NCBI RefSeq assembly: GCF_000215975.1
Contig: NC_015682.1
Span: forward strand, 1,054,001-1,118,000
Length of the DNA stretch: 64,000 bases
Origin: Thermodesulfobacterium geofontis OPF15
Lineage (GTDB): Bacteria > Desulfobacterota > Thermodesulfobacteria > Thermodesulfobacteriales > Thermodesulfobacteriaceae
Reading direction: 5' to 3'
In this document: in pieces, positions 4,313 to 64,000 of the stretch
Layout: the number at the start of each line of letters is the position of its first letter
Numbering within the stretch: the first letter of the stretch is position 1
Made by a program: the position numbers and the translations under genes
Notes under the pieces: model-generated
The model's database searches: none
What the model was told of the DNA's origin: nothing
What the model saw: only the letters and a program-made list of their open reading frames with translations

Positions 4313-5149
4313 TTAGATAGTTTCAGCTATTAAAATAGGGATAGAAACCCTTTTTAATAATTCCTTAGTTACAGAACCGAGTCCAAATTCTACTATTTTT
4401 CCAGTTTTTCCAATTATTAATAAATCAGGGGAAAACTCATTTATAGTTTTAAGAATTTCGTTTGTTTTTTTTCCATACTTTATTTGAAAATTAAACACCT
4501 CCTTTTTAGCTTCTTCTAAGGAGTTTAACAAATTATTCCATAGTTCATTTCTTTTGGCTCTTTTTTCCTCTAATATTTCTTCTTTCAATTTATGATTTTT
4601 TATTTTAATTTCAGAAATTACATTTAAAACTATTAATTGGGCACCTAATTTTTTGCTAATAAAATTTGCCATTTTTAAAGAAGGCAAAGAATTTTCAGAG
4701 AAATCAATACAACATAATACTTTTTTAATTTCCTGTAAAGGAGAATCTTTTACTACTAAAAAATTACTCTTTACTCTTTCTAAGATTTTTTCAGCTGTGG
4801 GAATTTTAAATCTATAGGGTTGATAACCTAAAACTAATAAATGGGGATTTAAATTTTTTACAAAATTTTTCAGGGCTTCCCAAAAATTTCCAAAGATTAC
4901 TTCAGTTTCTACAGGAATATTTTTATTTTTGAATTTTTGGGAGAGATTCAAAAATTCTGTTTTTAATCTATTTTCTTCTTCTTTAAAATAGGGGATAAGA
5001 TAATGGGGAGGTGTGAAAAAAAATTCGATTACATGAAAAAGAACTATTTTACTTTCAGGATAAAGTTTTTCCTTTAAAAACAGACCTGTTTCTAAAACAG
5101 AATTAGTAAATTTTTTAAAATCTATAGCTAAGGCTATAGTTTGAGACAT
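4313..5149 (-). CDS. Tandem universal stress protein (UspA)
   Basis: Two UspA domains in one chain (about residues 1-140 and 141-278). The second carries the ATP-binding signature G-x2-G-x9-GS (IGKTGKIVEFGLGSVT) near the C-terminus. The first has VLGYQPYRFKIP in place of that motif, so ATP binding is likely confined to the C-terminal half. I chose the ATG whose A is shared with the stop of the preceding gene (TAATG), giving 278 residues; a TTG four codons upstream would add MVKI. This overlap implies translational coupling to the BCAM0308-type gene. The role in stress physiology is inferred from the family. Confidence 0.88.
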   Translation of the reverse strand: MSQTIALAIDFKKFTNSVLETGLFLKEKLYPESKIVLFHVIEFFFTPPHYLIPYFKEEENRLKTEFLNLSQKFKNKNIPVETEVIFGNFWEALKNFVKNLNPHLLVLGYQPYRFKIPTAEKILERVKSNFLVVKDSPLQEIKKVLCCIDFSENSLPSLKMANFISKKLGAQLIVLNVISEIKIKNHKLKEEILEEKRAKRNELWNNLLNSLEEAKKEVFNFQIKYGKKTNEILKTINEFSPDLLIIGKTGKIVEFGLGSVTKELLKRVSIPILIAETI

Positions 5150-47763: not shown

Positions 47764-48465
47764 ATGTACGATTACAAACCTAATATTGAAAGGATAATAA
47801 GAAATGAAATTACTTCTGAAGAATATCAAAAATTTTTAAATATTCTTAAACGGATATTCAGGCAAGCTTTTAAAGTTTATTTTACTTTGGACATCGAAAA
47901 ACTTTTTCATAAGTTCTACGGACCGGACTATCTTGAAGTCTTAACTTCAGAACTGATTTTTAGAATTGTCTCTAAGAAGGATAGTTTTCTTAAGTTGCCT
48001 TATATAAATGAAAGATATCTTCTATCTACTGCAATAAACATAATTTATTTTCATCTTTCTTCAGGATTCAAAGTTGTGGAAAGAGAAGTAAATTTTGACG
48101 ATTTAAACTTAGCTCAAGAAGAGAATAAAGAGCAAAAATTCAGTGTTGAAAGTTTGCTTCCCCCAGTATTTGTGAATTTTCTTGAAGATAGTGCCTTGAG
48201 TCATCTTGTTATGAGCTTAAAGAAAAGATTAACCAAAAAAGAATTAGAAACGCTTTGTTGGTACATATACAAAGCCTACAAACAAAATCCAAAAGATGTT
48301 AAAGCAAGTGCAGACGCTATATACAAAAGGTGGGAAAGGCTTAAACCAAAGCTTAAGAAAATATTAGGAGAGGAAGTTTTTGAAGGTACCTCTGCTGATA
48401 AATTATTTTATGTTATTATGTCAGAAATCTGCAAAAAGCTTGATTTGTTTAAAAGTAGGAAATAA
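47764..48465 (+). CDS. Sigma-factor-like protein (CalpS candidate)
   Basis: 233 residues. The N-terminal half reads like sigma region 2: DYLEVLTSELIFRIVSKKDS then NERYLLSTAINIIYFHL, the D-hhhh-E-hhhRhh...hL...A.N...hhL pattern. The C-terminal half (about 155-205) reads like region 4: KKRLTKKELETLCWYIY then ASADAIYKRWERLKPKLKKIL, an L...E...L...-helix-turn-helix with R/K-rich end. It lacks cysteines for a zinc domain. Placed two genes upstream of a SAVED-Lon protease, it matches the CalpS role: an alternative sigma factor held by an anti-sigma protein. Divergent from ordinary ECF factors, so confirmation by profile search is needed. Confidence 0.65.
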   Translation: MYDYKPNIERIIRNEITSEEYQKFLNILKRIFRQAFKVYFTLDIEKLFHKFYGPDYLEVLTSELIFRIVSKKDSFLKLPYINERYLLSTAINIIYFHLSSGFKVVEREVNFDDLNLAQEENKEQKFSVESLLPPVFVNFLEDSALSHLVMSLKKRLTKKELETLCWYIYKAYKQNPKDVKASADAIYKRWERLKPKLKKILGEEVFEGTSADKLFYVIMSEICKKLDLFKSRK

Positions 48466-48510: not shown

Positions 48511-49344
48511 ATGAAGAAACCAGATAGAATTAAAAAGCAATGGGAATTATATCAATTTTTGAGAGGAAAAGAACTTGTAATATTCCCGGTCTCTCAAAAA
48601 ATCCCTCCTAAGGTGAATGAGTTGCGTGAGCTTTGCACTTTTCCTTCCATTTATTTTGTTCTGGCTGAAGAGATTTCTTTTTACCAAGAAAGACTTTTCA
48701 AGGCTATTGTCTTGACAGAAGAGATCATTCTTGGTTGGCTAAATCCTAAAACCCCTATCCTAAAACTTCATAATTTCAAAACATTATTAGTTGCGCTGCC
48801 TTTTTGGGTATATTTGGACGAAAAATTTTTACTTACCTATACTTTTAAACGAGGGATCCTAAACGAAGAAGACATCCACCGTCTTGAAGACTACGCCGAG
48901 TGCGCCAAGATCCCTCAGGACATTCGCGGCGAATACATCCGCTTTCTGATGAAGCTTCTTGCCCCTTACAATACAGAATCTATCTTGACTTATCTTGAAA
49001 AGCTTGAAGAGTATCAATTTGCTCCTTCAGTTTTTACCATCCCAGATGACCTAAAAACCTATTATGAAAATTCTCATTTCGCCTATGCTAAGGCAGCTTC
49101 TTCAAAAAATGTGCATAAAGGCAAAAACTTCTTCGCCATAGTTGAAAAAATCCCTGAGGTTGGACCAAAGCTCACCCTCTATCTTCCACAAGATTACTTA
49201 GGACAGAAAGTAACCATAAAAGTTGAAAACAATATTCTATTTGAGGGTACATTAGAAACAATCAAGCTTGAATTTACAAACCTTCCTGAACTTGCAGATT
49301 ATACCTCTTGGTTGGAGGCAATAAATGTCGAGATTTCCGTTTGA
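48511..49344 (+). CDS. Putative anti-sigma / protease substrate (CalpT-like)
   Basis: 277 residues, no signal or membrane helix. About residues 15-125 (GKELVIFPVSQKIPPKVNEL to VALPFWVYLDEKFLLTYTF) form a hydrophobic, beta-rich block. A linker of about 150-210 follows, then a beta-rich C-terminal domain (KLTLYLPQDYLGQKVTIKVE). I do not recognise it from motifs alone. Position between a sigma-like gene and the CalpL-like gene, and a 20-base overlap with the latter, make it the obvious candidate for CalpT, which is of similar size (about 33 kDa) and is the protease's substrate and anti-sigma factor. Functional call is from context. Confidence 0.5.
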   Translation: MKKPDRIKKQWELYQFLRGKELVIFPVSQKIPPKVNELRELCTFPSIYFVLAEEISFYQERLFKAIVLTEEIILGWLNPKTPILKLHNFKTLLVALPFWVYLDEKFLLTYTFKRGILNEEDIHRLEDYAECAKIPQDIRGEYIRFLMKLLAPYNTESILTYLEKLEEYQFAPSVFTIPDDLKTYYENSHFAYAKAASSKNVHKGKNFFAIVEKIPEVGPKLTLYLPQDYLGQKVTIKVENNILFEGTLETIKLEFTNLPELADYTSWLEAINVEISV

Positions 49345-50797
49345 AGAATTTGACGAGAATCATCTACTTAATTTCCTTGAGCAAGGTTTACTTGATGAAC
49401 ATATTGAAGAGCTCTTAATGAGGTGGAGTTTATTTTCTCCAAAAATTCAGTTTAGTCTTATTAATTATATTCGCGAAAGGTTGAAAGATAGTTTTAGCCC
49501 CAAGCTTTTAGTAAAGCATTTAAAGATTAAGCCTATTGAAGATGCCGAGCAGATTGTTAAAGGGAAAGGTAAACATTTTGAAATAATCGTTGTAGATAAA
49601 GACCAATCGGATTTTGCTAAAGGATTAGTAATACCTGATACTTCTAAAATCATAACCAATTTACCTGAGCTTAAAAATTCTTTAACTATTATTAAGAAGT
49701 TTTTAAACAAAAACTTTGCTGTATTCTTTGATTCCTACATCTCTGGAAAAAGTTTTATGCTTCCTCTTGCCTGTGCGTTAAGCATCGAAAGAATACCTGA
49801 AGATTTAAGATTTACAGGAGCCCTAAATATTAAAGGAGATGTTTTAGAGGTTGAACATCTAAAAGAAAAAATAGAGTTTGCTAAATCTCACGGTTTAAGG
49901 CTTATAACTCCTCTTCAGGTAAAGCGTTTTAATACTATTAAAGCTTATTTAGAAAAAGATAAATGGGACATACCCTTTTACATCACGACCGCAGGATATG
50001 AGGAATTTTTAAACTTTCTAAAAGACTTCATTGGAGAAAAAACTTTTGAAGAATTCGAGATCATTAAAGGGCTTGAGTTATTCTATGGCTTGCAAGAAGA
50101 CACTTTTTATCAGGTAACTGGACAATTAAAGACTGAGGAAGATTGGAAGAAAGTTTGTCAAGACTTTTATACTCGTTATTATAAAATTGTTACTACTCTC
50201 CCTGGGAATAAGATTTTTCACATAGGCATAAGAGGTGCTGTGGCTTTAAGCTTTGCTCTTGGAGTGCTTTATTCTCACTTCTATCCTTTCGTCTTTTACC
50301 ACTATCAAGCTAAGGAGTGGGAGACAAAATACCATACCATTCCCATAGATGAACCGAGATACCTGAAAGAAAGAAAATCTCAGTATAATTATATTAATAC
50401 GCTCTTTGAACATAATGGAGAAGACTTAGCGATGGTGCTTAACTTTGGACATCACGAAGCGGTTGCAGATGTAAAATCCTATGCCTTTTCCCATCTCAAT
50501 AATCCTTCTTTTTTAGTTTTAGAGGCTAAAGAAAAAGGGAATGTCCCCATTGAGAGCTTTTCTGAGGTTGCCAAAGAATGTGCTAGTGCTATCCAAGATA
50601 TTCGTTCTCAATTTTCAATGAAGACCTATCACTTCTTCTTTTCTTGCCCGGTTCCTATTGCCTTCATGGTAGGCTTAGCCTTTGGTCATTATGTTGACGG
50701 CTGGATCTACAATTTCCAAAAAGAAGGCTCTTCCTATCAACCAGTCTTAGAATTCAAATTTTTAAGAAAAATTAGGGAAGAAGCTGTCAGGAATTAG
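49325..50797 (+). CDS. calpL: Lon-like protease with SAVED domain (CalpL-like)
   Basis: 490 residues. Residues 1-75 are helical and soluble, with no membrane segment. A Lon-protease-like domain spans about 85-235: the region FFDSYISGKSFMLPLACALS aligns with Lon's DGPSAG segment (S143 as nucleophile), and TGALNIKGDVLEVEHLKEKI with Lon's TGEI...GG.KEK, placing K182 at the catalytic lysine. A SAVED domain fills about 290-480: IFHIGIRGAVALSFALGVLY, then FFFSCPVPIAFMVGLAFGHY and WIYNFQKEGSSYQPVLEF, its typical two half-sensor blocks. It should therefore be a protease switched on by a cyclic oligonucleotide made by Csm1. It overlaps the CalpT-like gene and precedes csm1 by 51 bases. Confidence 0.82.
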   Translation: MSRFPFEEFDENHLLNFLEQGLLDEHIEELLMRWSLFSPKIQFSLINYIRERLKDSFSPKLLVKHLKIKPIEDAEQIVKGKGKHFEIIVVDKDQSDFAKGLVIPDTSKIITNLPELKNSLTIIKKFLNKNFAVFFDSYISGKSFMLPLACALSIERIPEDLRFTGALNIKGDVLEVEHLKEKIEFAKSHGLRLITPLQVKRFNTIKAYLEKDKWDIPFYITTAGYEEFLNFLKDFIGEKTFEEFEIIKGLELFYGLQEDTFYQVTGQLKTEEDWKKVCQDFYTRYYKIVTTLPGNKIFHIGIRGAVALSFALGVLYSHFYPFVFYHYQAKEWETKYHTIPIDEPRYLKERKSQYNYINTLFEHNGEDLAMVLNFGHHEAVADVKSYAFSHLNNPSFLVLEAKEKGNVPIESFSEVAKECASAIQDIRSQFSMKTYHFFFSCPVPIAFMVGLAFGHYVDGWIYNFQKEGSSYQPVLEFKFLRKIREEAVRN

Positions 50798-50848: not shown

Positions 50849-53260
50849 ATGGAAGAAAATAAAAAGGAAGTTAGAAATTTACTTGCTATTGGTGCTCTTT
50901 TTCATGATATTGGTAAAGTAATAATAAGAGCACTTTGGGGTGAAACTGAACAGTATTTTAAACAAATTGAAAAAGAAAAACATTATAAAGAACAATTTAA
51001 ATATGCTCATGCCTATTCAACTTATGAATTTTTAAAAAATATTGTTGATAATCCAGTTATTCTTGCATCAAGCTATCATCATAATCCAGATGGTGCTGAA
51101 AAAGAGTTTAAACTTTATGCCAAAATTTATCAACTCGCTGATTATTATTCAAGTTCAGAAAGAAGTGAAAAAGAAAAAATAGAAAAAGAAAATTTATTAA
51201 GAGTGATTTTTCAAAATATTAAAGTTCCAAAAATTGAATCGAAAAGTCAAGAAAATTTTTCAGAACAAGAGTACTTTTACAATCTTCAACCTTTACAAAT
51301 AAATAATGAAGTAATTTTCCCAATAAAAAAAGAAGATCTTATAAGTTTTGATGAAATTACTGCATATAAAAATTTATGGCAGGGATTTCAAAATGAATTT
51401 AATATCTTAAAAAATGCTTATATAAAAGAGAAAAAATTAAATTCTTCAGAAAAATTTCTTACAGCTTTATATTATTTAATTTACAAATATTTTTGGTGCG
51501 TTCCTGCTTCAACTTATGATCCAGAAAGAAAAGAAAGGCACTACCCAGATATTTCTCTTTTTGATCACTTAAGAGTTTGTTCAGCCTTTTCTACTTCTCT
51601 TTATACAGACTATAACTTAAATATTATTAAAAATGGAGATAAACCAGAAACAGAAATAAAATTAATATTTTTGAAAGGGGATATAAGTGGAATTCAAAAA
51701 TTTCTTTATGGAATAACAAATATTAAAGGTGTTGCAAAGAGATTAAGAGGAAGAAGTTCTTTTTTAGCTCTTCTTCCTGATTTAGTAGCCAAAGCACTCC
51801 TTGACAAATTTGGTTACCCCTTTGTTAACATTCTTTATTCAGGAGGTGGTCATTTTGAAATTGTTTTAGGTTATGAGGAAGGGATAGAAAAAGAATTAGA
51901 TAAATTTTCAAAAGAAGTAGAAGAGATTTTATTTAAAAATTTTTATGGAGCTCTGGGATTAGCTTTAGGTTATACCGAGATTACTTTATCTGAGTTAAGG
52001 AATAAAGAAATTTATAGAAATAAAATAATGAAAAACATTTATAGAGTTCTTGAGAAAAACAAAAAACAGAAATTTAAAGGCGTATTAATTAATTATTCTA
52101 TAGATCAACTTTTAGATATAATAAATCAAGAATTTAAGGATATAGAAAAAAATTATACAGTTTGCTCATCCTGTCAGGTAGTTATAACAGAAGAAAAGGG
52201 AGAGGAAGAAAAAAATATATGTAAGTGGTGTGAAACTTTTAAAGAAGTAGGAGAAATTATTCCCAAAGCAAAATATTTAATTTTTTCTAAAGAAAAATTA
52301 AATAATCTACCAGGATTTCACATTGATAGAATAGGCGGAGTTTACTTTTTAGAAAATTTATCAAAAGTTTCTATTCAGATTAAAGAAAATAATGAGATAT
52401 ACCTTCTTAATGATACTAATTTTCTAAAGAAAGATAGATGTGATGGATTCAAATTAATAGCCCAAATAGTTCCTCAAACAAATTCCGAAGTTATGACTTT
52501 TGAAGAATTAGTTGAGTTTGCAAAGGGAGACAAGAAACTTGCTTTTGCAAGGGGTGATGTAGATAATCTTGGGCTTATTTTTATGCAAGGGTTAGGAGAA
52601 GATTATAGCATTTCAAGGATAGCAGCCTTAAGTAGAAGTTTGGATTTGTATTTTTCTGGCTATTTTAATTATCTTTTTAATTTAGAAGAATTTAAAAATA
52701 AAATTTATGTTTTATATGCAGGTGGTGATGACTTTTTCATAATTGGTCCTTGGGATATAGTTTTTGAAGCCTTAGAAAGAATAAGAGAGGATTTTAAAAA
52801 ATATACATGCAAAAACAAGGATATAGATCTTTCAAGCGGAGTTTTTGTAGGGCGTGATTCTTATCCTGTAAGATTTGCTGGTGAGTTAGCAGGAAGTGAA
52901 GAAGATAAAGCAAAGGAAATCAAGTCAACAATTAGAGTTTTAAGTGAAAGTTTAAAGTGGGAAGAATATGAAAAAGCAATTGAAGAAGCAGAAGGCATAG
53001 TTAATCTTGTAAATAATAAAAAAATAGGGCGGTCTTTATTTTATAAATTTTATCAATTATTAAAGTCTTTTAGGGATAATAAAAATAATATTTCTCCTAA
53101 ATTTTATCCTCAATTTTATTACTATTTATATAGAAATGTTAAAGATAAAGATGATAGAGAGCAAGTAATAAATTTCTTTCTTGATTCAAAAAATGATTAT
53201 CAAGTAAAGAAAGATGCTTTATTTAAAGCTAAATATGTAATAATGAAAACAAGAGAATAA
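50849..53260 (+). CDS. csm1: Type III-A CRISPR polymerase/nuclease subunit Cas10 (Csm1)
   Basis: 803 residues. N-terminal HD nuclease domain: ALFHDIGKVIIRA near residue 15 and SSYHHNPDG near residue 76. The zinc knuckle CSSC...CKWC lies near residues 439-463. The Palm2 cyclase motif is YVLYAGGDDFFIIG near residue 625, the GGDD that makes cyclic oligoadenylates from ATP. Both catalytic centres are intact, so the complex should cut ssDNA and make the second messenger that drives Csx1 and the SAVED protease. GAGAGGGA precedes the ATG. Short Csm1-type rather than Cmr2-type, judged by the adjacent csm2-csm5. Confidence 0.94.
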   Translation: MEENKKEVRNLLAIGALFHDIGKVIIRALWGETEQYFKQIEKEKHYKEQFKYAHAYSTYEFLKNIVDNPVILASSYHHNPDGAEKEFKLYAKIYQLADYYSSSERSEKEKIEKENLLRVIFQNIKVPKIESKSQENFSEQEYFYNLQPLQINNEVIFPIKKEDLISFDEITAYKNLWQGFQNEFNILKNAYIKEKKLNSSEKFLTALYYLIYKYFWCVPASTYDPERKERHYPDISLFDHLRVCSAFSTSLYTDYNLNIIKNGDKPETEIKLIFLKGDISGIQKFLYGITNIKGVAKRLRGRSSFLALLPDLVAKALLDKFGYPFVNILYSGGGHFEIVLGYEEGIEKELDKFSKEVEEILFKNFYGALGLALGYTEITLSELRNKEIYRNKIMKNIYRVLEKNKKQKFKGVLINYSIDQLLDIINQEFKDIEKNYTVCSSCQVVITEEKGEEEKNICKWCETFKEVGEIIPKAKYLIFSKEKLNNLPGFHIDRIGGVYFLENLSKVSIQIKENNEIYLLNDTNFLKKDRCDGFKLIAQIVPQTNSEVMTFEELVEFAKGDKKLAFARGDVDNLGLIFMQGLGEDYSISRIAALSRSLDLYFSGYFNYLFNLEEFKNKIYVLYAGGDDFFIIGPWDIVFEALERIREDFKKYTCKNKDIDLSSGVFVGRDSYPVRFAGELAGSEEDKAKEIKSTIRVLSESLKWEEYEKAIEEAEGIVNLVNNKKIGRSLFYKFYQLLKSFRDNKNNISPKFYPQFYYYLYRNVKDKDDREQVINFFLDSKNDYQVKKDALFKAKYVIMKTRE

Positions 53261-53279: not shown

Positions 53280-53699
53280 ATGTCTAATGGGCAAAATAGA
53301 GATCAAATTACTAAAAAATTAACAGACGAAATTAAGAAAAAGAGTGGACTTTGTTATTTTAGTCTATATGAATTACTAAAACCGAATGGTTATGCACAAC
53401 AGGTAGTTAAGGAAAATGAACTTACCAGGGTTCAGTTAAGAAAAGTATTTTCTGAATTTAAATACGTATATGATGAATACAAAAAAAATAAAAATAAAGA
53501 GAAAGCCAAAATTCATTTATACAAACTTTATCCTCTTCTTCAATATCAAGTAAATAGAAGATTAATTAAGGAAAATTTCAAAAATTTAATATGGGCTATT
53601 TTAGACACTTTAGTAGGCAATGACGAAAAATTTGATGAGAATTTAGAATTTTCATATGAATTTTTAAAAGCTTTAGTAGCGTATATTCCGAGAGAGTAG
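53280..53699 (+). CDS. csm2: Type III-A CRISPR small subunit Csm2
   Basis: 139 residues, basic and all-helical, as expected for the Csm2 small subunit that lines the backbone of the complex. The ELTRVQLRKVFSEFKYVYDE and FLKALVAYIPRE-type ends match the family pattern. Start ATG with GAAGGGGGT upstream. Placed between csm1 and csm3, its usual location. Confidence 0.9.
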   Translation: MSNGQNRDQITKKLTDEIKKKSGLCYFSLYELLKPNGYAQQVVKENELTRVQLRKVFSEFKYVYDEYKKNKNKEKAKIHLYKLYPLLQYQVNRRLIKENFKNLIWAILDTLVGNDEKFDENLEFSYEFLKALVAYIPRE

Positions 53700-53739
53700 C
53701 ATGTATTCCGAAAGAACATTAAAAAGAGGAGGTGAAAAT

Positions 53740-54600
53740 ATGTTTAATTATAAAGGTTCATTTATTATAGAATATACTTTAAAAGCTTTAACCGGTCTTA
53801 GAATAGGAGGTTCAAAGGAACAGTTCGAAATAGGAGGACTTGATAATCCAGTTATTAAAGTTGAAGTTGAGATCCCAGATTATGATGGAAATGGTAATAC
53901 ATTGCCTCAAGGAGCTCCTTATATCCCTGGCTCAAGCTTAAAAGGAAAGATGAGAAGTTTACTTGAATGGTTAAATGGGAATGTAGAGAAAATGATAAAG
54001 AAAGTAAAGGATGATAAAAATATAAAAGATGAAAAAAAAGTTGATAAAGCAGGAGGAGCTTGTACTTGTGGAGAATGTGAGATTTGTAAGATATTTGGAA
54101 CTGGAGATGCAGAAAGAGTGAAAGAATTAGCAGAAAAAGGAATAGATTTTATTCCTGGTCCGCCCCGTCTTAGAGTTTTTGATGCTTATCCAACTTATGA
54201 GACCTTAAAACGTTTAAAAGATGCTCTTGGTGAAAATATTTTTACAGAAATTAAAACTGAAAATCAGATCAATCGTTTAACTTCTAAATCAAATCCAAGA
54301 AAGGTAGAAAGGGTTCCAGCTGGGGCTGAATTTAAAGGAACTATGGTTTTTGATGTGTATAAAGATGAAGATAAAGACCTTTTGAAAGTTGTTTTTCAAG
54401 GAATGAAATGTCTTGAAGATCACTATCTTGGTGGATATGGATCAAGAGGTTCAGGAAAAGTAAAATTTAAAGATATTACCCTTATATGGAGACCAAAAGA
54501 ATATTATCTTGGTGAAGAAGAAAAAGAAAGAAAACTTTTTGAAAATAATCAGCTCAACGAAATTTTAAAAAATTTATCAGAAAAACTAAATACACTTTAA
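53740..54600 (+). CDS. csm3: Type III-A CRISPR RAMP Csm3 (target RNA backbone nuclease)
   Basis: 286 residues from the ATG at 53740 (strong GAGGAGGTG Shine-Dalgarno; the longer frame from 53701 lacks one). It contains GLRIGGSKEQFEIGGLDNPV, whose aspartate is the site of target-RNA cleavage every six nucleotides. It also has the glycine-rich loop LGGYGSRGSGKVKF near residue 240 and a Csm3-typical cysteine zinc cluster CTCGECEICKIFG near residue 108. Cleavage by Csm3 of matching RNA ends Csm1 signalling. Located within the csm operon. Confidence 0.94.
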   Translation: MFNYKGSFIIEYTLKALTGLRIGGSKEQFEIGGLDNPVIKVEVEIPDYDGNGNTLPQGAPYIPGSSLKGKMRSLLEWLNGNVEKMIKKVKDDKNIKDEKKVDKAGGACTCGECEICKIFGTGDAERVKELAEKGIDFIPGPPRLRVFDAYPTYETLKRLKDALGENIFTEIKTENQINRLTSKSNPRKVERVPAGAEFKGTMVFDVYKDEDKDLLKVVFQGMKCLEDHYLGGYGSRGSGKVKFKDITLIWRPKEYYLGEEEKERKLFENNQLNEILKNLSEKLNTL

Positions 54601-54617
54601 AATTGGAGGTATTAAAG

Positions 54618-55583
54618 TTGAAACTTTATGAATTTACTTTTAAAGGATTATCATATTTTACTTCTGAAATAAAAAGTTATACAATTTTTGGTGCTTTATG
54701 TTGGGGATATAGAAATTTTTTTGGCGAAAAAAAGCTTTTAGACCTTCTTGAATGTTTTAATTCAAATCCTCCCTTTTTAATCTCTTCTTGCATTTTTAAA
54801 AAGGGAAATATCAGATATTTTCCTTGTCCTCAAATAGAGGAGGCTTTTCCTGAACCAAAAGATATAGAAGAATATAAAAAACAAAAAGAAATTAAGAAAA
54901 AACTAAATTATATTCCTGAAGATATCTTTATAGAATTTTTAGAGGGGAAAATTAAAACAAAATGGAAATTAGGTCAAAAAATTGAAGAATGTAAAGGTTT
55001 TGAGACTATATCAATTCATAGGACAATAAAACTTCATAATTCAATAAATCGTTTAACTTGGACAACAGTAGGTGGTCAGTTATATAATGTTTTTTCATAC
55101 TTTTACCCAGAGTTTTCATTTTTTATTTGTTTATTTGATGAAAATTTATTAGATGAAATTAAAGCTGTGTTTAAATATATATCCTTTGGAGGTAATAAAT
55201 CTACTGGTTATGGAAGAGTTAAATTGATAAAGGTTGATAGAGTAGAAAAATTTGAAAAATATTTAAATCAGTTTACTCAAAAGTTTTATACACTTTCTTC
55301 AACCCTTCCAGATTCTTCTTTTGATTATGATAATAGTTATTATCAAATAGAAATCTTTTGTGGAAAGGTTGAAAATTTTTATGATAGATTAGTTGCTCCG
55401 ATATTAAAAAGAAAGGTATTATATCTCCAACCTGGTTCCATTTTAACTATAAAAGATGGTAATAAAAAAAATTTTTATGGTAATTTAATAAATGTTCTTT
55501 CTTCAAGATCTCTTATTGATCCTTCAAAGGAAGTGAAAATTTATCAGTATGGTTATGCCTTTCCATTTTATATAAAAGAATAA
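54618..55583 (+). CDS. csm4: Type III-A CRISPR RAMP Csm4
   Basis: 321 residues from the TTG at 54618, eight bases after GGAGGT; a TTG at 54603 would include the Shine-Dalgarno itself. An N-terminal RAMP fold (KLYEFTFKGLSYFTSEIKS, AYGTIFGALCWGYRNFF-like) is followed by the glycine-rich segment FGGNKSTGYGRVKLIKV near residue 190. Csm4 caps the crRNA 5' handle next to Csm1. The stop overlaps the beginning of the csm5 reading frame by one base. Confidence 0.88.
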   Translation: MKLYEFTFKGLSYFTSEIKSYTIFGALCWGYRNFFGEKKLLDLLECFNSNPPFLISSCIFKKGNIRYFPCPQIEEAFPEPKDIEEYKKQKEIKKKLNYIPEDIFIEFLEGKIKTKWKLGQKIEECKGFETISIHRTIKLHNSINRLTWTTVGGQLYNVFSYFYPEFSFFICLFDENLLDEIKAVFKYISFGGNKSTGYGRVKLIKVDRVEKFEKYLNQFTQKFYTLSSTLPDSSFDYDNSYYQIEIFCGKVENFYDRLVAPILKRKVLYLQPGSILTIKDGNKKNFYGNLINVLSSRSLIDPSKEVKIYQYGYAFPFYIKE

Positions 55584-55594
55584 TGGAGGATAAG

Positions 55595-56785
55595 ATGGAA
55601 CTTATAACTCTTTCTCCTTTGCATATAGGAGATGGAGAAGAACTTATTCCTTTTGAATATATAGAAGAAGATAATAAAGTCAAAATCTATCCTTTTGACT
55701 ATTTCATAGATAAGCTTTATGAAACGTATAAAGAGCCAAAAGATTTACTTCCTAAATTAATAGAACTTAAAGAAACAGCTAAGAACGGCTTAAAAGAAAA
55801 TTTGAAAGATTATTTTAAAAAAGTCAAGATTTCAATTTCTCCAAAATATGAAATAACTACAAAGGTTGGTATCCCAGCAGAAAACAATATTAAGACTTTT
55901 ATTAAAAATCTTGAAGGACCTTATATTCCTGGAAGTGAAATAAAGGGTGCTTTAAGAACTGTATTTCTGTATGGAATATTGAAAAAAGATATTAAAAGAA
56001 AAAGCCAATTTTTAAATCAACTTGAAAAAATAAAACCAGAAATAGAAAAATTAGCAAATGTTTACGATGAAAGAGAGAAAAAAGAAGAAAAAAGAAAGGT
56101 CTTAGAGAGTATATCAAAATTAATTGAAAATTTAGAAAGAGAAATTTTTCGTGCAAATCAAGAAGATGCACAATATGATCTTTTTAAAGCTATTACTGTT
56201 TCAGATTCATTCTCTATATCCTATAACGATCTTTATATAGATGCTATAAGAGTGTTAAATTCAAGTAGAGACTTAAGAAGCTATTCAGAAATATTAAAAG
56301 GGGGTTTGAGAATTAAATTAGATGGGTTTATTGATGAAAAAATTGCTCTTGAGGGATTAAAGAAATTAACCATTTTTAATGAAAAATTTAAAAATCAAAA
56401 TATAGAAAAAGTAACTTGGCAATTTTTAAAAGAAAGTGCTATAGATTTTTATTCAAGTTTAATTGAGAAAGAGAAAAATTATGTAAAAAATAAAGTAAAA
56501 GATCAAGAACTTAAAAATTCTTTGTTAAAACAATTAGAAAAATTAGAAGTATATATTAGAGAGGCTAAAAATTCTTCAAAAATTATAATTCCTTTAAGAA
56601 TTGGTCAGCATCAAGGATATTTAAGCATTACTATAATGCAATTAGTAAAAGAAGAAAGACCTGATTTATTTGATGATATTTTTAAAGTTTCTGCCCCTCA
56701 AGTAAGGTGTGAGCTTAATAAAACCAGAAGAGTAGTTGAAAGTGAGGGGAAGTTTTTAGGTTGGTGTTTTTTATACATAGAATAA
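55595..56785 (+). CDS. csm5: Type III-A CRISPR RAMP Csm5
   Basis: 396 residues from the ATG at 55595, preceded by GGAGG; the upstream ATG at 55583 would contain the Shine-Dalgarno. It opens with LITLSPLHIGDGEELIPFEY, has the RAMP block GPYIPGSEIKGALRTVFLYG near residue 107, and the basic, helical middle and C-terminal end typical of Csm5, which caps the 3' end of the crRNA and recruits trimming nucleases. The cas6 start follows two bases after its stop. Confidence 0.9.
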   Translation: MELITLSPLHIGDGEELIPFEYIEEDNKVKIYPFDYFIDKLYETYKEPKDLLPKLIELKETAKNGLKENLKDYFKKVKISISPKYEITTKVGIPAENNIKTFIKNLEGPYIPGSEIKGALRTVFLYGILKKDIKRKSQFLNQLEKIKPEIEKLANVYDEREKKEEKRKVLESISKLIENLEREIFRANQEDAQYDLFKAITVSDSFSISYNDLYIDAIRVLNSSRDLRSYSEILKGGLRIKLDGFIDEKIALEGLKKLTIFNEKFKNQNIEKVTWQFLKESAIDFYSSLIEKEKNYVKNKVKDQELKNSLLKQLEKLEVYIREAKNSSKIIIPLRIGQHQGYLSITIMQLVKEERPDLFDDIFKVSAPQVRCELNKTRRVVESEGKFLGWCFLYIE

Positions 56786-56786
56786 A

Positions 56787-57638
56787 ATGCCTGTTAGGTT
56801 CTCTATAGATTTAAATCTTCAGAGTAAAGTAGAAAATCCCTCGTTAATTACGCCTGATGTTTTGCATGGGTTTTTCTTTAGTCTTCTTCCTTCAAATATA
56901 GCTGAAACTCTTCATAGACCTTCAAGATACAAGCCCTTTTGCCTATGGGCACCTAAGATATTTAAGTTTCTTCAAGATAAAGAGACTTTTCATGATTTTT
57001 CCAATTCAATTTTAACCATAACGGTTAGTTTTTTAAAAGATGAACTCTTTTCTCCATTTTTATTTAAGCTTACTGAGAATAGAAAAAATCTATTTTTAGG
57101 ACCTTACAAGGTTTCTCTATTACAAAATCCAGGAAGTTTAATAAAAAATGATGAATACAGTACATTTGAAAATTTTTTAAACATCCAACCAAAAACCTAC
57201 ATGTATTTCTATGCTATTACACCTATTTCCTTTAAAAAAGGACAAATTGATTATCCCTTGCCTGACCCTAAGATTTTTTTTAAAAGCTTGATTAATAAAT
57301 GGAATTACTTTTCCCCTTTTAGAATAGAAGTTGATTTAAGAAAAGTTTTAGAGGAGAAGTTATGCATAGTTTATAGTAAGATAAGGACTTATAAAATCAA
57401 ACTCTCTCTTGGAAGTGCTGTGACAGGTTTTAAAGGGAAAGTTGTTTTTTATGGGAAAGGTCTGATAGATGAAGAATTGAGGTGGCTTAATATTCTTGGA
57501 CATTTTTCAAGATATGCCGGCGTTGGTAGAAAAACCACTATGGGGCTTGGTATGGTTGAATTTCAAGCACTTAATATAGATGAAATTACTGCTGAGGAGG
57601 GCATCGATGATGCTAATTTACCAAATTGGTCGGCTTGA
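56787..57638 (+). CDS. cas6: CRISPR pre-crRNA endoribonuclease Cas6
   Basis: 283 residues with two ferredoxin-like halves. The glycine-rich RNA-binding loop near the C-terminus is AGVGRKTTMGLGMVEF. A histidine in ITPDVLHGFFFSLL near residue 28 is a candidate general base. It should cut each repeat eight bases from its 3' end, leaving the ATTGCGA[A/C] handle predicted for this array. Its last 32 bases overlap csx1. Confidence 0.86.
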   Translation: MPVRFSIDLNLQSKVENPSLITPDVLHGFFFSLLPSNIAETLHRPSRYKPFCLWAPKIFKFLQDKETFHDFSNSILTITVSFLKDELFSPFLFKLTENRKNLFLGPYKVSLLQNPGSLIKNDEYSTFENFLNIQPKTYMYFYAITPISFKKGQIDYPLPDPKIFFKSLINKWNYFSPFRIEVDLRKVLEEKLCIVYSKIRTYKIKLSLGSAVTGFKGKVVFYGKGLIDEELRWLNILGHFSRYAGVGRKTTMGLGMVEFQALNIDEITAEEGIDDANLPNWSA

Positions 57639-58977
57639 TTCAGGCGCATTTAATCCAATAAAATTTGAAGTTAATGGAAAAGAATATACAGCTCAACTTA
57701 GTTCTTTTGCTCTTCGCCAAAGCTTTCTTGAAAATGGAGAAGCATCTAAGGTTATTCTTATCTATCCCGTTAGCTTATTTTTAAACAAATCACTTTCGAA
57801 CAAAAATAATCCTCAAACTCAAAATATTCCAATAGATTTTAAAAAGGTAATAGAAAGTATTTTATACAATAAAGCCGAACGTTTTAACTATCTCTCAAAT
57901 CCATATCCATATTTTGCTAAGCATCCCCATTCAAAAGAAGCAGATGAATTTATAGTAATTCACAGCATAGGGCAGTATGAAGGTATAAATTTTTCCGCAA
58001 CTTTAGAAGAGCTAATTCTTGAAATCTTTATTGATATGGTTAAGCGGTATCAAGATGAGCCTTTTTCTGAACTTTATCTTGATATCTCAAGTGGTCATAA
58101 TATATACACTTCAGCTCTTCTTGAAGCAGGAAGATTATTTTTAACTTTTTATAAACTACAAAATTTTTTAACTAAAGGAAAAGAACTTAACGTTTTTATA
58201 ACTTTTTCTGATCCGATTCTACCACCCTATGAGAGAACCTTCAAAATTCATAAAGGATTCCTTTTAGAAGTAAAAGTATTTTTTAGTTATCCTGAAAAAC
58301 CTTATGAATATTCTCTTAGGCAAGGTTATATGAAATTTGCAGGAGAATTGGCAAAAGAAAACAGAGAAATTAAAAGAGATTTAAATGATCTTTTTTCCTA
58401 CGGGAAATTTTTTTATTCCGCTATTAAAAATAATATTCCTCTGGTGCTTTATACTCAGGCTTACCATTCGGAGGAACGTATAAATGAAGGACTACAGATT
58501 TTAATAAAATTAGTAAAAGACAGTCTTACTCAAAATTATCAAAACACTCCTAAACTTAACTTTGATCTTTTTCGCAAAGCTTTCCTTATGTTAGCAATTT
58601 ACAAAGGAATAACAGAAGTTCTCAAAACTTATAAAATTGCAAAAAAAGAAGAAGTTTCAATATCCGAACTTAGAGAAAAATTTGTAGAAGAAAACAAAAG
58701 TCTTTATAAATATTTTGGATTGGTTCAAAATAGAAATTATCTTTCTCAAGAAATAAAAAATAATTTTGATAGAAATAAAGATAAATTTGAAAAAGAATAT
58801 AAACTTTTGAGAGAATATATAGGTGGGGAAAGTGAAGATTTTAACCCAAGAAATTTTTTTGCCCATTGTGGATTTGAAAGAAATAGCATTTATGTCAGAA
58901 AAGATGGAGAAGAAATTTTAGTAAAATATAGAGAAGATAGGTTAGAAGAGATAGCAAAGATCTTAATGGAATATTAA
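57607..58977 (+). CDS. csx1: CARF-HEPN ribonuclease Csx1
   Basis: 456 residues from the ATG at 57607, which has GGAGG seven bases upstream inside cas6; a longer frame from 57580 lacks one. The N-terminal CARF domain begins LIYQIGRLDSGAFNPIKF and contains LYLDISSGHNIYTSALLEAG near residue 160. The C-terminal HEPN domain has the intact RNase motif RxxxxH in NPRNFFAHCGFE near residue 418. It is a non-specific RNase triggered by cyclic oligoadenylate from Csm1, working beside the SAVED-Lon protease. No separate ring nuclease gene is seen, so Csx1 might clear its own activator. Confidence 0.9.
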   Translation: MMLIYQIGRLDSGAFNPIKFEVNGKEYTAQLSSFALRQSFLENGEASKVILIYPVSLFLNKSLSNKNNPQTQNIPIDFKKVIESILYNKAERFNYLSNPYPYFAKHPHSKEADEFIVIHSIGQYEGINFSATLEELILEIFIDMVKRYQDEPFSELYLDISSGHNIYTSALLEAGRLFLTFYKLQNFLTKGKELNVFITFSDPILPPYERTFKIHKGFLLEVKVFFSYPEKPYEYSLRQGYMKFAGELAKENREIKRDLNDLFSYGKFFYSAIKNNIPLVLYTQAYHSEERINEGLQILIKLVKDSLTQNYQNTPKLNFDLFRKAFLMLAIYKGITEVLKTYKIAKKEEVSISELREKFVEENKSLYKYFGLVQNRNYLSQEIKNNFDRNKDKFEKEYKLLREYIGGESEDFNPRNFFAHCGFERNSIYVRKDGEEILVKYREDRLEEIAKILMEY

Positions 58978-58982
58978 TTAAA

Positions 58983-59660
58983 ATGTATGGTAGAATTTTA
59001 ATATACTATGGACAAAAGGTAACTTTTTCTGAAGATATAGCCTCTATCATAAGCTTTAAAAGCGGTTTTGAAAATATTGGTCTTCCTTTAATCAGACTTT
59101 TTCCTTCTAAAGACTATTCGAGAATTTATTTAAATTTTAAAGAACCGATAATACCAGTTAAAAATTTATTTGTAAAATTTTTGAGAGAACGTAGAAAGTG
59201 GTTAGAAGAATTCCAAAATACTGCTTATTTAGCTTTGAAGTACAGAGATCATAAACTTTATGGAAAGTCTTTTAATGAGCCAATTCCATATAGATTATTA
59301 GTAAAAGAAGTTTCTACAATAATTAAAGCCTATTACAGATATTATAGCATTGCTTGTGCAATTTTGACTGCCCTCTTTTTTACTAATGTTGGATTACCTA
59401 AATTCTTGCCTAAGGTAGTAGAAGAAGTTTATGGGCAAGATTTTCTTGACGATTTTTTCTTTGCTCCAGCTTTTATATTTACTGTCTTTGAATCAACTGC
59501 GGATCTTTTATTGGGGGAAGCACTTAAAGATGAATTTTGTATAGCAAAAAGTTTTCTTTCTTTTTTACTTTGGAAACATGCAAAAGCTTTACTTAAAATT
59601 CCTTATTTTAAATTAATTCATGTAGGAGTTAAAAAGGAGCTTATATGGATTACCTTATAG
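58983..59660 (+). CDS. Uncharacterised protein between csx1 and cas2
   Basis: 225 residues, hydrophobic-aromatic and helical, no signal peptide. N-terminal text ILIYYGQKVTFSEDIASIIS resembles a small Rossmann-like start; then FLRERRKWLEEFQNTAYLAL and two long helical blocks (KAYYRYYSIACAILTALFF; FFFAPAFIFTVFESTADLLLG) that might pack or contact a membrane. I find no catalytic motif I can name. It starts six bases after csx1 and overlaps cas2 by 16 bases, so it is certainly part of the cas operon. It could be a regulator or adaptor of Csx1/adaptation, or a diverged effector domain. Confidence 0.6.
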   Translation: MYGRILIYYGQKVTFSEDIASIISFKSGFENIGLPLIRLFPSKDYSRIYLNFKEPIIPVKNLFVKFLRERRKWLEEFQNTAYLALKYRDHKLYGKSFNEPIPYRLLVKEVSTIIKAYYRYYSIACAILTALFFTNVGLPKFLPKVVEEVYGQDFLDDFFFAPAFIFTVFESTADLLLGEALKDEFCIAKSFLSFLLWKHAKALLKIPYFKLIHVGVKKELIWITL

Positions 59661-59905
59661 TATACGATATTTCAGACCACAAAAAGAGACTTAAAGTATC
59701 AAGACTTTTACAAAAATTTGGTTATCGCATCCAATATAGTGCATTTTATTTACCTGAAACAAAGGGAAATATAATAGATTTCTTATTTAAAGAAATTTCT
59801 AAACTTATTGATAAGAATACCGATCGGGTTTTCTTTTATCCAGTACATCCTCCAGAGGTATTTAAAGGCTATCCTCTTGAACCTTGGAAAATTTTTATAA
59901 TTTAA
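59645..59905 (+). CDS. cas2: CRISPR adaptation protein Cas2 (first copy)
   Basis: 86 residues: ferredoxin fold starting DYLIVYDISDHKKRLKVSRL, with QYSAFYLPETKGNIIDFL and the C-terminal RVFFYPVHPPEVFKG. The Cas2 active-site aspartate is D8 of VYDI. It is translationally coupled to the upstream unknown gene and lies 17 bases before cas1, the usual partner arrangement in the adaptation complex. Confidence 0.92.
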   Translation: MDYLIVYDISDHKKRLKVSRLLQKFGYRIQYSAFYLPETKGNIIDFLFKEISKLIDKNTDRVFFYPVHPPEVFKGYPLEPWKIFII

Positions 59906-59921
59906 AAAGGAGTAATAAATT

Positions 59922-60797
59922 ATGAAACAAACTATTATTATCTACAGTAATTATGTAGAAGTAAGTCGTAAAGGAGGAAGACTATATATTGAAACTCCTA
60001 AAACTAAATGTAGTATACCTCTTTCTAACATAGACGGAATACTCATTTTTGGAAAATCTTATCTTACTTCAGAAGCTATCTCTCTTTGCATGAAAAAACA
60101 AATTCCTATTATCCTTTTTACTATCTATGGAAAAATAAAGGGACAGATTTTACCCCCGGCTAATAGTGAAACTACTAATAAAAGAATAAAACAATTCGGT
60201 CTCTATTTTTTCAAAAGATTTGAAATTGCTAAATATTTAATAAAAAGAAAATATAACGAAATAGAACGCACTTTTAATGTAGAACTTTGGGAACTTAAAC
60301 CTAAAATTGATGAAGTAACTGATTATACTTCCTTACTTGGTATTGAAGGAATAGCAACTAAGGTTATGTTTCAAAAATTTGAGAGTATGATAAAAGATAC
60401 AGAATTTAAATTTTGGGATAGGAATTATCGTCCTCCAAAAGATGAAGTAAACGCCCTTTTAAGTTTTATTTATACTCTTGGTTATAATTTAGCAACTGGA
60501 ATTATTGTTTTAAAAGGATTTGACCCTTTTATATCTTTTCTTCATTTTAAAAGAGGTAAACATGCTGCTTTTGCTTCAGATTTAATGGAAATAATTCGTC
60601 CTAAATTAACTTTATTTTCTGCAGAGCTTATTACTAAGAATAAGATAATCAAGGAAGATTTTGTTAAAGAAAATAATTATTTTTATTTAAAAAAACAAGC
60701 CATTTATAAGATTTTAGAAGAGTTCAATCAGCTCAAAGAAGAACTAATAACTTCTATGAAAAAGTTTTTAACTGATTTGGAAAATTTTGATTTTTAG
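59922..60797 (+). CDS. cas1: CRISPR integrase Cas1
   Basis: 291 residues. The N-terminal beta domain (NYVEVSRKGGRLYIETPK) is followed by the helical catalytic domain with the metal ligands E in LLGIEGIATKVMF near residue 145, H in FLHFKRGKHAAFASDLME near residue 209 and D in the same block. Forms the integration complex with Cas2. Shine-Dalgarno AAAAGGAG precedes the start. It sits between two different cas2 genes. Confidence 0.95.
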   Translation: MKQTIIIYSNYVEVSRKGGRLYIETPKTKCSIPLSNIDGILIFGKSYLTSEAISLCMKKQIPIILFTIYGKIKGQILPPANSETTNKRIKQFGLYFFKRFEIAKYLIKRKYNEIERTFNVELWELKPKIDEVTDYTSLLGIEGIATKVMFQKFESMIKDTEFKFWDRNYRPPKDEVNALLSFIYTLGYNLATGIIVLKGFDPFISFLHFKRGKHAAFASDLMEIIRPKLTLFSAELITKNKIIKEDFVKENNYFYLKKQAIYKILEEFNQLKEELITSMKKFLTDLENFDF

Positions 60798-60811: not shown

Positions 60812-61057
60812 ATGCGAGTTATAGTCTACGATTATGAGACAGAAAAAATAAGAGAAAAGGTTAGGAAAAATTTGAAAAAGCTTGGAGTGCATGCTCAATG
60901 GAGTGTATTTGAGAGTTTAGAAAGTTATGAAAACTTAATAAAAGTTTTGCTTGAGGAAGAGGGTGAGAAATATAGAGTAGCTATTTTTAAGATTAATCCA
61001 AAAGGAGAAATAAGAAAAATTGGTCAAAATTGGGAAAAGATTAAATTTATTTTTTAA
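60812..61057 (+). CDS. cas2: CRISPR adaptation protein Cas2 (second, divergent copy)
   Basis: 81 residues, a short Cas2 with MRVIVYDYETEKIREKVRKN, LKKLGVHAQWSVFESLESYE and a compact C-terminal beta hairpin (IRKIGQNWEKIKF). The aspartate of VYDY is in place. It differs strongly from the first copy. It is the last gene before the leader and array. Confidence 0.88.
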   Translation: MRVIVYDYETEKIREKVRKNLKKLGVHAQWSVFESLESYENLIKVLLEEEGEKYRVAIFKINPKGEIRKIGQNWEKIKFIF

Positions 61058-61342
61058 AAATTTTTACTATAATAAATTTTAATAGCAAATTGTTCTTTGA
61101 AAATTGAATAATTTAGAAGGGCAGGTTTTTTATTGGAGCATTAATTTTAAACTTTTTCTCCTTTCCATAAGTAAAAATCATTAAAGCTTTAAAGAAGCAA
61201 ATTTTAAAAAAGAAATATTGAGATTCAGTTATCCCTGATCTTGTAGCTCAAAATAAATGTGTTCTCCAAGGGTAAATTTTAAAAAATTTAATTTGTTTTA
61301 ATATTCACAAATAAGATTTTATAAGATTTACATAGTGTTAGG
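61058..61342 (+). promoter_or_regulatory. CRISPR leader
   Basis: 285 bases without a gene between cas2 and the first repeat, about 75% A+T. Contains TTCTTTGAAAATTGAATA (61093-61110), a motif style seen near CRISPR leaders, and AGGGCAGGTTT (61118-61128), the exact reverse complement of bases 5-15 of the repeat. The final bases before the first repeat are TTTACATAGTGTTAGG. Position between adaptation genes and the array's most diverse end marks it as the leader. Confidence 0.8.
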
Positions 61343-64000
61343 GTTGAAACCTGCCCTGGATTAAAAGGGATTGCGAATTACAAAAATAAAATTTTTCATG
61401 TGGACAGGTCCATTCAAGAGTTGAAACCTGCCCTGGATTAAAAGGGATTGCGAAAATTGATCATAAAGTATTCTTTCAATTGTCTCTTTCAAATTGTTGA
61501 AACCTGCCCTGGATTAAAAGGGATTGCGAATTTCGTTGAACTTCTTTATCTTACTCGCACACTCTTTTTCACAAGTTGAAACCTGCCCTGGATTAAAAGG
61601 GATTGCGAAACCTCTTTGTAAATCATTTTAACCCTCCCTTTTTTTATTGTTGAAACCTGCCCTGGATTAAAAGGGATTGCGAATCTTCCGGTTTTGGTTT
61701 GTGCCATACTGGGAATTCAAATACGAGTTGAAACCTGCCCTGGATTAAAAGGGATTGCGAAACAGGACATTTTTCTAACATAACCTTACCTCCTTTTTAA
61801 GTTGAAACCTGCCCTGGATTAAAAGGGATTGCGAAAAATTGCTCTATCCTCTCAAACTCAACTACTCTAAATGTTGAAACCTGCCCTGGATTAAAAGGGA
61901 TTGCGACACTTTTATTTACTTTTCCTCCGATTTCGTTCCAAATATTAATGTTGAAACCTGCCCTGGATTAAAAGGGATTGCGAAATACAAACCTCTTTAC
62001 CCTCAGCACAAAGCTCTTCATATGTGTTGAAACCTGCCCTGGATTAAAAGGGATTGCGAATGTGGTAATTTTTTTTATCATGGCTTACACCTCTTTTTTA
62101 GTTGAAACCTGCCCTGGATTAAAAGGGATTGCGAAAAATGATTTAATTAAATGTTGATAGTTCAACCAAAAGGTTGAAACCTGCCCTGGATTAAAAGGGA
62201 TTGCGAAAAGAGAGGAGTGGAGGATTTATTCAATTTTGATGGTAATTTCGGGTTGAAACCTGCCCTGGATTAAAAGGGATTGCGAAATACAAACCTCTTT
62301 ACCCTCAGCACAAAGCTCTTCATATGTGTTGAAACCTGCCCTGGATTAAAAGGGATTGCGAATCTTTTTTTTCTGGCATAATAACCCTCCTTTATATTTT
62401 GTTGAAACCTGCCCTGGATTAAAAGGGATTGCGAAATAAGATCCCTGTCTTCTCCTATGATAATGAATTTTTTGTTGAAACCTGCCCTGGATTAAAAGGG
62501 ATTGCGAATATACAAAAGCCACTTTCCTTATAATAAGGACAATTTTTAGTTGAAACCTGCCCTGGATTAAAAGGGATTGCGAAAAATGATTTAATTAAAT
62601 GTTGATAGTTCAACCAAAAGGTTGAAACCTGCCCTGGATTAAAAGGGATTGCGAATTGACACCTCCGTAAACTTTCGTATCGGCTGTATAATAGAAGTTG
62701 AAACCTGCCCTGGATTAAAAGGGATTGCGAAGATCTAAATCTACCTCCCCTTCCCTTTTCTCTTTCAAATGGGTTGAAACCTGCCCTGGATTAAAAGGGA
62801 TTGCGACTTTTTCATTTTTGTCCTCCTCCTTTTGATTTTTTATTTTTATGTTGAAACCTGCCCTGGATTAAAAGGGATTGCGACACTTTTATTTACTTTT
62901 CCTCCGATTTCGTTCCAAATATTAATGTTGAAACCTGCCCTGGATTAAAAGGGATTGCGAATTAACATCTGCAAAATTTATAGGAATGTTAATGGTTGAA
63001 ACCTGCCCTGGATTAAAAGGGATTGCGAATTTGCCATTTCCTTTCTCATAAGTCTCACCTCCTTATTTGTTGAAACCTGCCCTGGATTAAAAGGGATTGC
63101 GAAAAGTTGCTACTTTTTCAATCATAGTTTTCCCCCTTTTTAGTGGTTGAAACCTGCCCTGGATTAAAAGGGATTGCGACGCAGACTTTATGACATCAGA
63201 AAGTCTAATCTGAGAAGGTTGAAACCTGCCCTGGATTAAAAGGGATTGCGACTTCTGTCCAGCCCAGCCCTAATAATTTGATATTGATTAGTTGAAACCT
63301 GCCCTGGATTAAAAGGGATTGCGACCCTAAAAAATTGGGCAACTCTAAAAACTACTGAAAGAACACGTTGAAACCTGCCCTGGATTAAAAGGGATTGCGA
63401 CACTTTTATTTACTTTTCCTCCGATTTCGTTCCAAATATTAATGTTGAAACCTGCCCTGGATTAAAAGGGATTGCGAATTAACATCTGCAAAATTTATAG
63501 GAATGTTAATGGTTGAAACCTGCCCTGGATTAAAAGGGATTGCGAATTTGCCATTTCCTTTCTCATAAGTCTCACCTCCTTATTTGTTGAAACCTGCCCT
63601 GGATTAAAAGGGATTGCGAAAAGTTGCTACTTTTTCAATCATAGTTTTCCCCCTTTTTAGTGGTTGAAACCTGCCCTGGATTAAAAGGGATTGCGACGCA
63701 GACTTTATGACATCAGAAAGTCTAATCTGAGAAGGTTGAAACCTGCCCTGGATTAAAAGGGATTGCGACTTCTGTCCAGCCCAGCCCTAATAATTTGATA
63801 TTGATTAGTTGAAACCTGCCCTGGATTAAAAGGGATTGCGACCCTAAAAAATTGGGCAACTCTAAAAACTACTGAAAGAACACGTTGAAACCTGCCCTGG
63901 ATTAAAAGGGATTGCGACACTTTTATTTACTTTTCCTCCGATTTCGTTCCAAATATTAATGTTGAAACCTGCCCTGGATTAAAAGGGATTGCGACCCTAA
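61343..64000 (+). CRISPR. Type III-A CRISPR array, 36 repeats, runs off the right edge
   Basis: Thirty-six copies of a 34-bp invariant sequence starting GTTGAAACCTGCCCTGGATT and ending AAAAGGGATTGCGA, with a 35th base always A or C. The repeat is thus 35 bp, and the crRNA handle is ATTGCGAA or ATTGCGAC. The first repeat is 61343-61376; the last is 63961-63994, after which a 36th spacer begins. There are 35 complete spacers of 34-45 bp (34-bp repeat counting), 24 of them distinct. Transcription is rightward from the leader, inferred from leader position and from spacers antisense to gene starts. Confidence 0.98.
62884..63917 (+). repeat. 517-bp tandem duplication inside the CRISPR array
   Basis: Bases 62884-63400 (seven spacer-repeat units) are repeated exactly as 63401-63917. 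A third copy starts at 63918 with the same spacer but then jumps to a spacer beginning CCCTAA. The first spacer of the block also occurs upstream at 61907-61949. Recombination between repeats is the likely origin; an assembly artefact should be excluded. Confidence 0.9.

Follow-up and report, generated by a model that had tools for sequence, protein, structure and literature searches.

In seven of the 29 distinct spacers (24%) of the type III-A CRISPR array of Thermodesulfobacterium geofontis OPF15, the complement of the crRNA strand has a Shine-Dalgarno (SD) sequence followed by an ATG; under the same strict pattern, none of the 29 has both on the crRNA strand. The array and its cas genes lie in the window analysed here, a stretch of 64,000 nucleotides that corresponds to positions 1054001-1118000 of the complete 1,634,377-bp genome (G000). 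The best explanation, to which we give a probability of about 0.6, is that this is the spacer memory of a conventional type III-A system, shaped by selection for guides that pair with mRNA and showing an excess of start sites, its cause unproven. The general rule among related arrays is the orientation of the spacers; the start-site excess is mainly a property of this array, and perhaps extends to its family and a few III-B loci.

A complete type III-A (Csm) locus, recognised by profile matches to NCBIfam, Pfam and PADLOC, lies upstream of the array in the order CalpL, Cas10/Csm1, Csm2-Csm5, Cas6, Csx1, a 225-aa protein, Cas2, Cas1, a second Cas2-like protein, leader and array (Table 1). The matches of Cas10/Csm1 and of each of Csm2-Csm5 are above the NCBIfam cut-off, which identifies the type as III-A; Cas6 is matched by PADLOC with an E value of 2e-25 and by NCBIfam with 55.5 bits, slightly below the cut-off of 58.65. 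The GGDD motif predicts a cyclase-type Cas10, which is accompanied by predicted cOA effectors (Csx1 and the SAVED-Lon protease). The latter is the CalpL protease of Calp (CRISPR-Lon) signalling. The genes at 47764-48465 and 48511-49344 occupy the place expected for CalpS and CalpT and have no match to the sigma and anti-sigma families of Pfam; this pair preceding CalpL is possibly a divergent CalpS and CalpT. The 225-aa protein (58983-59660), encoded between csx1 and cas2, has no match in NCBIfam, Pfam or PADLOC, and it may be linked to adaptation because its gene overlaps the start of cas2. The cas1 gene is flanked by two cas2-like genes, and in the second of these the match to the Cas2 model is confined to the N-terminal half of the model.

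Table 1. Features of the III-A locus and array in window coordinates, with readings of selected spacers
Feature	Position	Strand	Basis or remark
CalpL-type SAVED-Lon protease	49325..50797	+	profile matches
cas10/csm1, HD (FHDIGK) and GGDD motifs	50849..53260	+	profile matches, motifs in translation
csm2, csm3, csm4, csm5	53280..56785	+	profile matches
cas6	56787..57638	+	PADLOC match
csx1 (CARF-HEPN)	57580..58977	+	profile matches
cas2	59645..59905	+	profile match
cas1, 291 aa, without RT domain	59922..60797	+	profile matches
second, shorter cas2-like gene	60812..61057	+	profile match
AT-rich leader, transcription probably left to right	61058..61342	+	between second cas2 and first repeat
type III-A CRISPR array, repeat GTTGAAACCTGCCCTGGATTAAAAGGGATTGCGA(A/C)	61343..64000, on to its end at 64448 past the window	+	
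spacer, complement GGGAGGGTTAAAATG ATT TAC AAA GAG GTT	61609..61648	-	MIYKEV
spacer, complement AAGGAGGTAAGGTTATG	61761..61800	-	MLEKCPV
spacer with SD-like GGAGG only	61907..61949	-	GGAGGA also readable as Gly-Gly codons, open frame
spacer, complement AAGAGGTGTAAGCCATG	62060..62100	-	MIKKIT
spacer with GAGGAG and GGAGG on the crRNA strand	62207..62251	+	ATG 15 nt away
spacer, complement AAGGAGGGTTATTATG	62362..62400	-	MPEKKD
spacer ending 7 nt past GGAGG	62655..62696	-	ATG just beyond the spacer possible
spacer with GGGGAGG only	62731..62772	-	
spacer, complement AGGAGGAGGACAAAAATGAAAAAG	62807..62849	-	MKK
spacer, complement AAGGAGGTGAGACTTATG	63029..63068, duplicate 63546-63585	-	MRKEMAN
spacer, complement AAGGGGGAAAACTATG	63103..63145, duplicate 63620-63662	-	MIEKVAT

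The whole array has 42 repeats and 41 spacers. The window holds 24 of the 29 distinct spacers, and the last five, beyond it, are without a start site. Degenerate repeats are confined to the right end of the array, so the crRNA has the sequence of the + strand and its target RNA that of the complement, an orientation that the first-pass annotation had assumed and that the rightmost position of the variant repeats bears out. The 3' end of the repeat, GATTGCGA, would form the 5' tag of the crRNA, and its last bases, GGATTGCGA(A/C), closely resemble the 8-nt ATTGMAAS-type tag. A block of seven spacers is present in tandem duplicate (62850-63366 and 63367-63883, with a period of 517 bp), and some individual spacers, that at 61907-61949 among them, are present several times, a pattern suggestive of recombination between repeats. 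One isolated III-A repeat, with two mismatches, is located at G000:C1:1227030-1227063 (L007, about 5031-5064), a few kb from the type I-like array of the genome, with no second repeat or array nearby.

In all seven complements the SD (GGAGG, GGGGG or GAGGT) stands 6-8 nt upstream of the ATG, and the coordinates first reported for these spacers, seven of the 24 distinct ones in the window, are exact spacer boundaries. The three further spacers reported to have an SD-like motif and no ATG were found as described. The accompanying claim that the other strand carries no such signal holds for SD plus ATG and fails for the SD alone, the exception being the spacer at 62207-62251. Each start site is read from the spacer sequence itself; SD and ATG on the complement support the proposal that the crRNAs would bind mRNAs where translation starts.

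SD plus ATG is commoner in these spacers than in dinucleotide shuffles of them (7 observed, 1.54 expected, P about 0.001), a comparison proposed with the original observation, which withstands it. Shuffling provides a weak null, given that starts are present in whatever mRNA is sampled. A sense-strand null was therefore taken from 40-nt windows slid along four annotated phages (Geobacillus E2, phiC2, 80alpha and phi29), gene-dense early regions included, and along the host. The motif is present in 2.8-6.0% of these windows, which places the start-site frequency of the array 4- to 6-fold above the sense-strand phage null. Seven of 29 compares with 1.2-1.7 expected, and the binomial P of about 2e-4 to 1.4e-3 (nulls of 4.5-6%), like the P from the shuffles, is optimistic because the array was picked for its striking look. 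A stricter SD score leaves six of 29, against 1.3-4.6% in the nulls. The array also differs from other type III arrays (7/29 versus 44/650, Fisher P 0.004) and from the type I array of its own genome (P 0.03).

Three sister arrays, which share the repeat family and have a related Cas1, contain start sites in 4/47 (G010), 3/38 (G014) and 2/8 (G024) spacers, every one on the target strand. In these arrays with the same repeat, the kind whose examination the first-pass annotation had recommended, the orientation is thus one-sided throughout, and the pooled 9/93 is about 2-fold over the null, with P from 0.02 (4.5% null) to 0.11 (6% null). A further 22 III-A arrays with related repeats, adjoining csm1 genes of the phylum, have 21/416 (5.0%) on the target strand and four on the opposite strand; there is no start-site excess in these arrays, the rate being that of the sense-strand expectation. 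The III-B arrays near cmr2-like genes have 14/141 (9.9%) on the target strand and one on the opposite strand. Altogether, the 679 type III spacers of the phylum carry 51 start sites on the target and five on the opposite strand (P 1e-10), in a survey in which several arrays are cut by contig ends and orientation comes from the 3' motif of the repeat, not from transcription data. Type I control arrays of the same family are symmetric, as expected, with five and seven in 193 spacers. When either strand is counted, the rates in type III (56/679) and type I (12/193) are statistically indistinguishable (Fisher P 0.45). Open-frame counts do not separate the strands in AT-rich arrays.

Since spacers that sample mRNA match starts at 3-6% anyway, this one-sidedness is the known coding-strand bias of type III spacers, published as 65% on average (PMC8482600). 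As in other coding-strand-biased type III arrays, the crRNAs are antisense to transcripts and the signal is one-sided. Seen through start sites the bias is about 10:1, compared with a published average of about 2:1 for all protospacers (PMC8482600), and this array, unlike such arrays generally, has an additional start-site excess. The description of the spacers as systematically antisense to starts is therefore overstated: the strand rule stands (51:5), while the excess belongs mainly to this array and elsewhere is weak (9/93) or absent (21/416). Likewise, a start-site frequency that goes past the general need of type III to hit transcripts is seen here, where 7/29 is above the sense-strand null, and not as a general rule.

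In the reading that we prefer, an ordinary array under selection, Csm and Cas10 are switched on only when a crRNA has paired with an invader mRNA. Almost every retained spacer is therefore antisense to a transcript, as the one-sided start sites show at the sequence level. A random sample of antisense sites already contains gene starts at 3-6%. The several-fold higher share here is likely to have two sources, short target genes and a tendency to retain guides against the 5' part of mRNAs. Such guides may be kept because this part is transcribed first, abundant and accessible, the last because it would be unstructured and free of ribosomes between initiations. Dedicated machinery that selects start sites would not be needed. 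This reading is favoured by the complete III-A locus with its own Cas1-Cas2, by the ratio of 51:5 against 5:7 in type I, by the other III-A arrays lying on the sense-strand phage null with this one above it, by recurrent, partly overlapping spacers at the same kind of start in other arrays, and by the published coding-strand bias of type III spacers. Against it, strand bias by itself would yield a smaller excess than this array has. The older spacers of the array are not richer in start sites (mean rank 0.46, KS P 0.39), and this array-age test does not favour either selection or acquisition.

Chance combined with short target genes is a plausible alternative, though we would not call it probable. 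The 29 spacers would be a strand-filtered sample from viral genes of 150-300 nt, in the most striking array, noticed as such. A null of 9-12%, which would need very short genes, lifts the P for 7/29 to 0.01-0.05, and type III arrays as a pool are near the null, with no excess over type I on both strands together. However, even the dense early regions of annotated phages give just 5-6%, and the independent arrays of the family lean the same way as this one.

A bias in acquisition is an unlikely source of the excess. Cas1-Cas2 would take up DNA from the 5' end of genes under transcription, such as coding-strand ssDNA or hairpins that become accessible close to promoters and starts; the antisense orientation would then be kept by selection. 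The part of a review that deals with naive acquisition by the RT-free III-A system of Streptococcus thermophilus describes a peak roughly 10-50 bp downstream of start codons (Zhang et al. 2021, in PMC9048733) and further enrichment at transcription attenuator hairpins (PMC9048733). From this account, a bias near gene starts is not unprecedented, even though the orientation there is non-functional; the spacers are on the coding strand, the opposite of this array, and are called not directly useful (PMC9048733). So far as that account goes, the two cases share a proximity to start codons, terminator-like hairpins and the lack of an RT, and they differ in that S. thermophilus was studied in a laboratory assay, with spacers 10-50 bp past the start, whereas here a natural array has spacers in the functional antisense orientation with the start codon inside them. 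Start-site spacers of all array ages, a terminator hairpin copied in three variants in G014 and another hairpin in G010 agree with biased acquisition, but the 22 other III-A arrays with related repeats have no excess. Hairpin or terminator enrichment was rejected as a general feature, the instances being these variants of one terminator in G014 and the one hairpin in G010.

Specific selection of start-site guides, in which bound Csm would block translation initiation and add an antisense benefit to Cas10 activation, is improbable: all seven would cover SD and AUG, and in several arrays the same SD-AUG regions are hit repeatedly, yet many arrays have no excess and the ATG has no preferred place within the spacer.

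Type III systems with RT-Cas1, such as the III-B system of Marinomonas, acquire spacers from RNA. The transcript-related content of the spacers here is similar, but, unlike in those systems, no RT is fused to Cas1 and the genome has no RVT_1 match. That these spacers were copied from mRNA, for example as ribosome-protected fragments, by an RT-linked Cas1 is very hard to credit: six of the seven ATGs in this array are at protospacer positions 20-23, near the footprint of an initiating ribosome, but the 291-aa Cas1 without an RT domain and the lack of an RVT_1 match in G000 (complete), G010, G014 and G024 make an RNA origin unlikely. So does the ATG position, which in 44 independent start-site spacers does not depart significantly from uniformity (KS P 0.17; 20/44 in the middle third, P 0.06) and gives a ribosome footprint no support. 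The clustering at spacer positions 20-24 appeared strong at first look, and its significance was lost with motif-conditioned positions and independent arrays.

At issue is the route by which RT-free type III systems gain useful antisense spacers. The strand skew of roughly 10:1 comes from an internal marker, SD plus ATG within the spacer, that is applicable to any host using SD sequences and needs no known virus. Should larger samples bear out the start-site excess, the region where mRNA translation is initiated would be a preferred source or a preferred target. A tentative and rather doubtful extension is that RT-free type III systems of the Thermodesulfobacteriaceae, and of some III-B loci in the phylum, have a preference, in acquisition or in retention, for spacers against ribosome-binding sites and start codons of invader mRNAs, and that their crRNPs act at the initiation region besides triggering Cas10.

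Searches of phages, plasmids and family genomes, and exact scans of IMG/VR, gave no convincing protospacer. Self-targeting of host gene starts was discarded: no spacer matches its own genome outside the array at E 1e-3, and for the seven even the closest sites in 96 kb of host DNA have 11-15 mismatches. Two weak matches in the relatives G005 and G012 simply fall on other gene starts and have 10-11 mismatches along the full spacer.

Certain gene starts are covered more than once in other arrays. Among the start-site-rich arrays of the phylum (L165 3008, 2/6; L178 13152, 4/47; L185 14340, 4/34; L109 10173, 6/52), several spacers share one gene start. In L165 an MSWEV start is covered twice among six spacers, L185 has two overlapping spacers at one gene start, and two spacers of L178 have the same 5' leader; G010 has spacers at MKGYY and MKGFY starts. 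These multiple spacers at the same or homologous starts, whose overlap SD similarity itself inflates, would fit repeated acquisition at particular 5' ends or their preferential retention there. In the G014 array (L048, 6393-9227), the three terminator-hairpin spacers are variants of one hairpin, and a single viral gene (GDENSC motif) is the source of several others; the array thus draws time and again on a small number of sites in one virus family.
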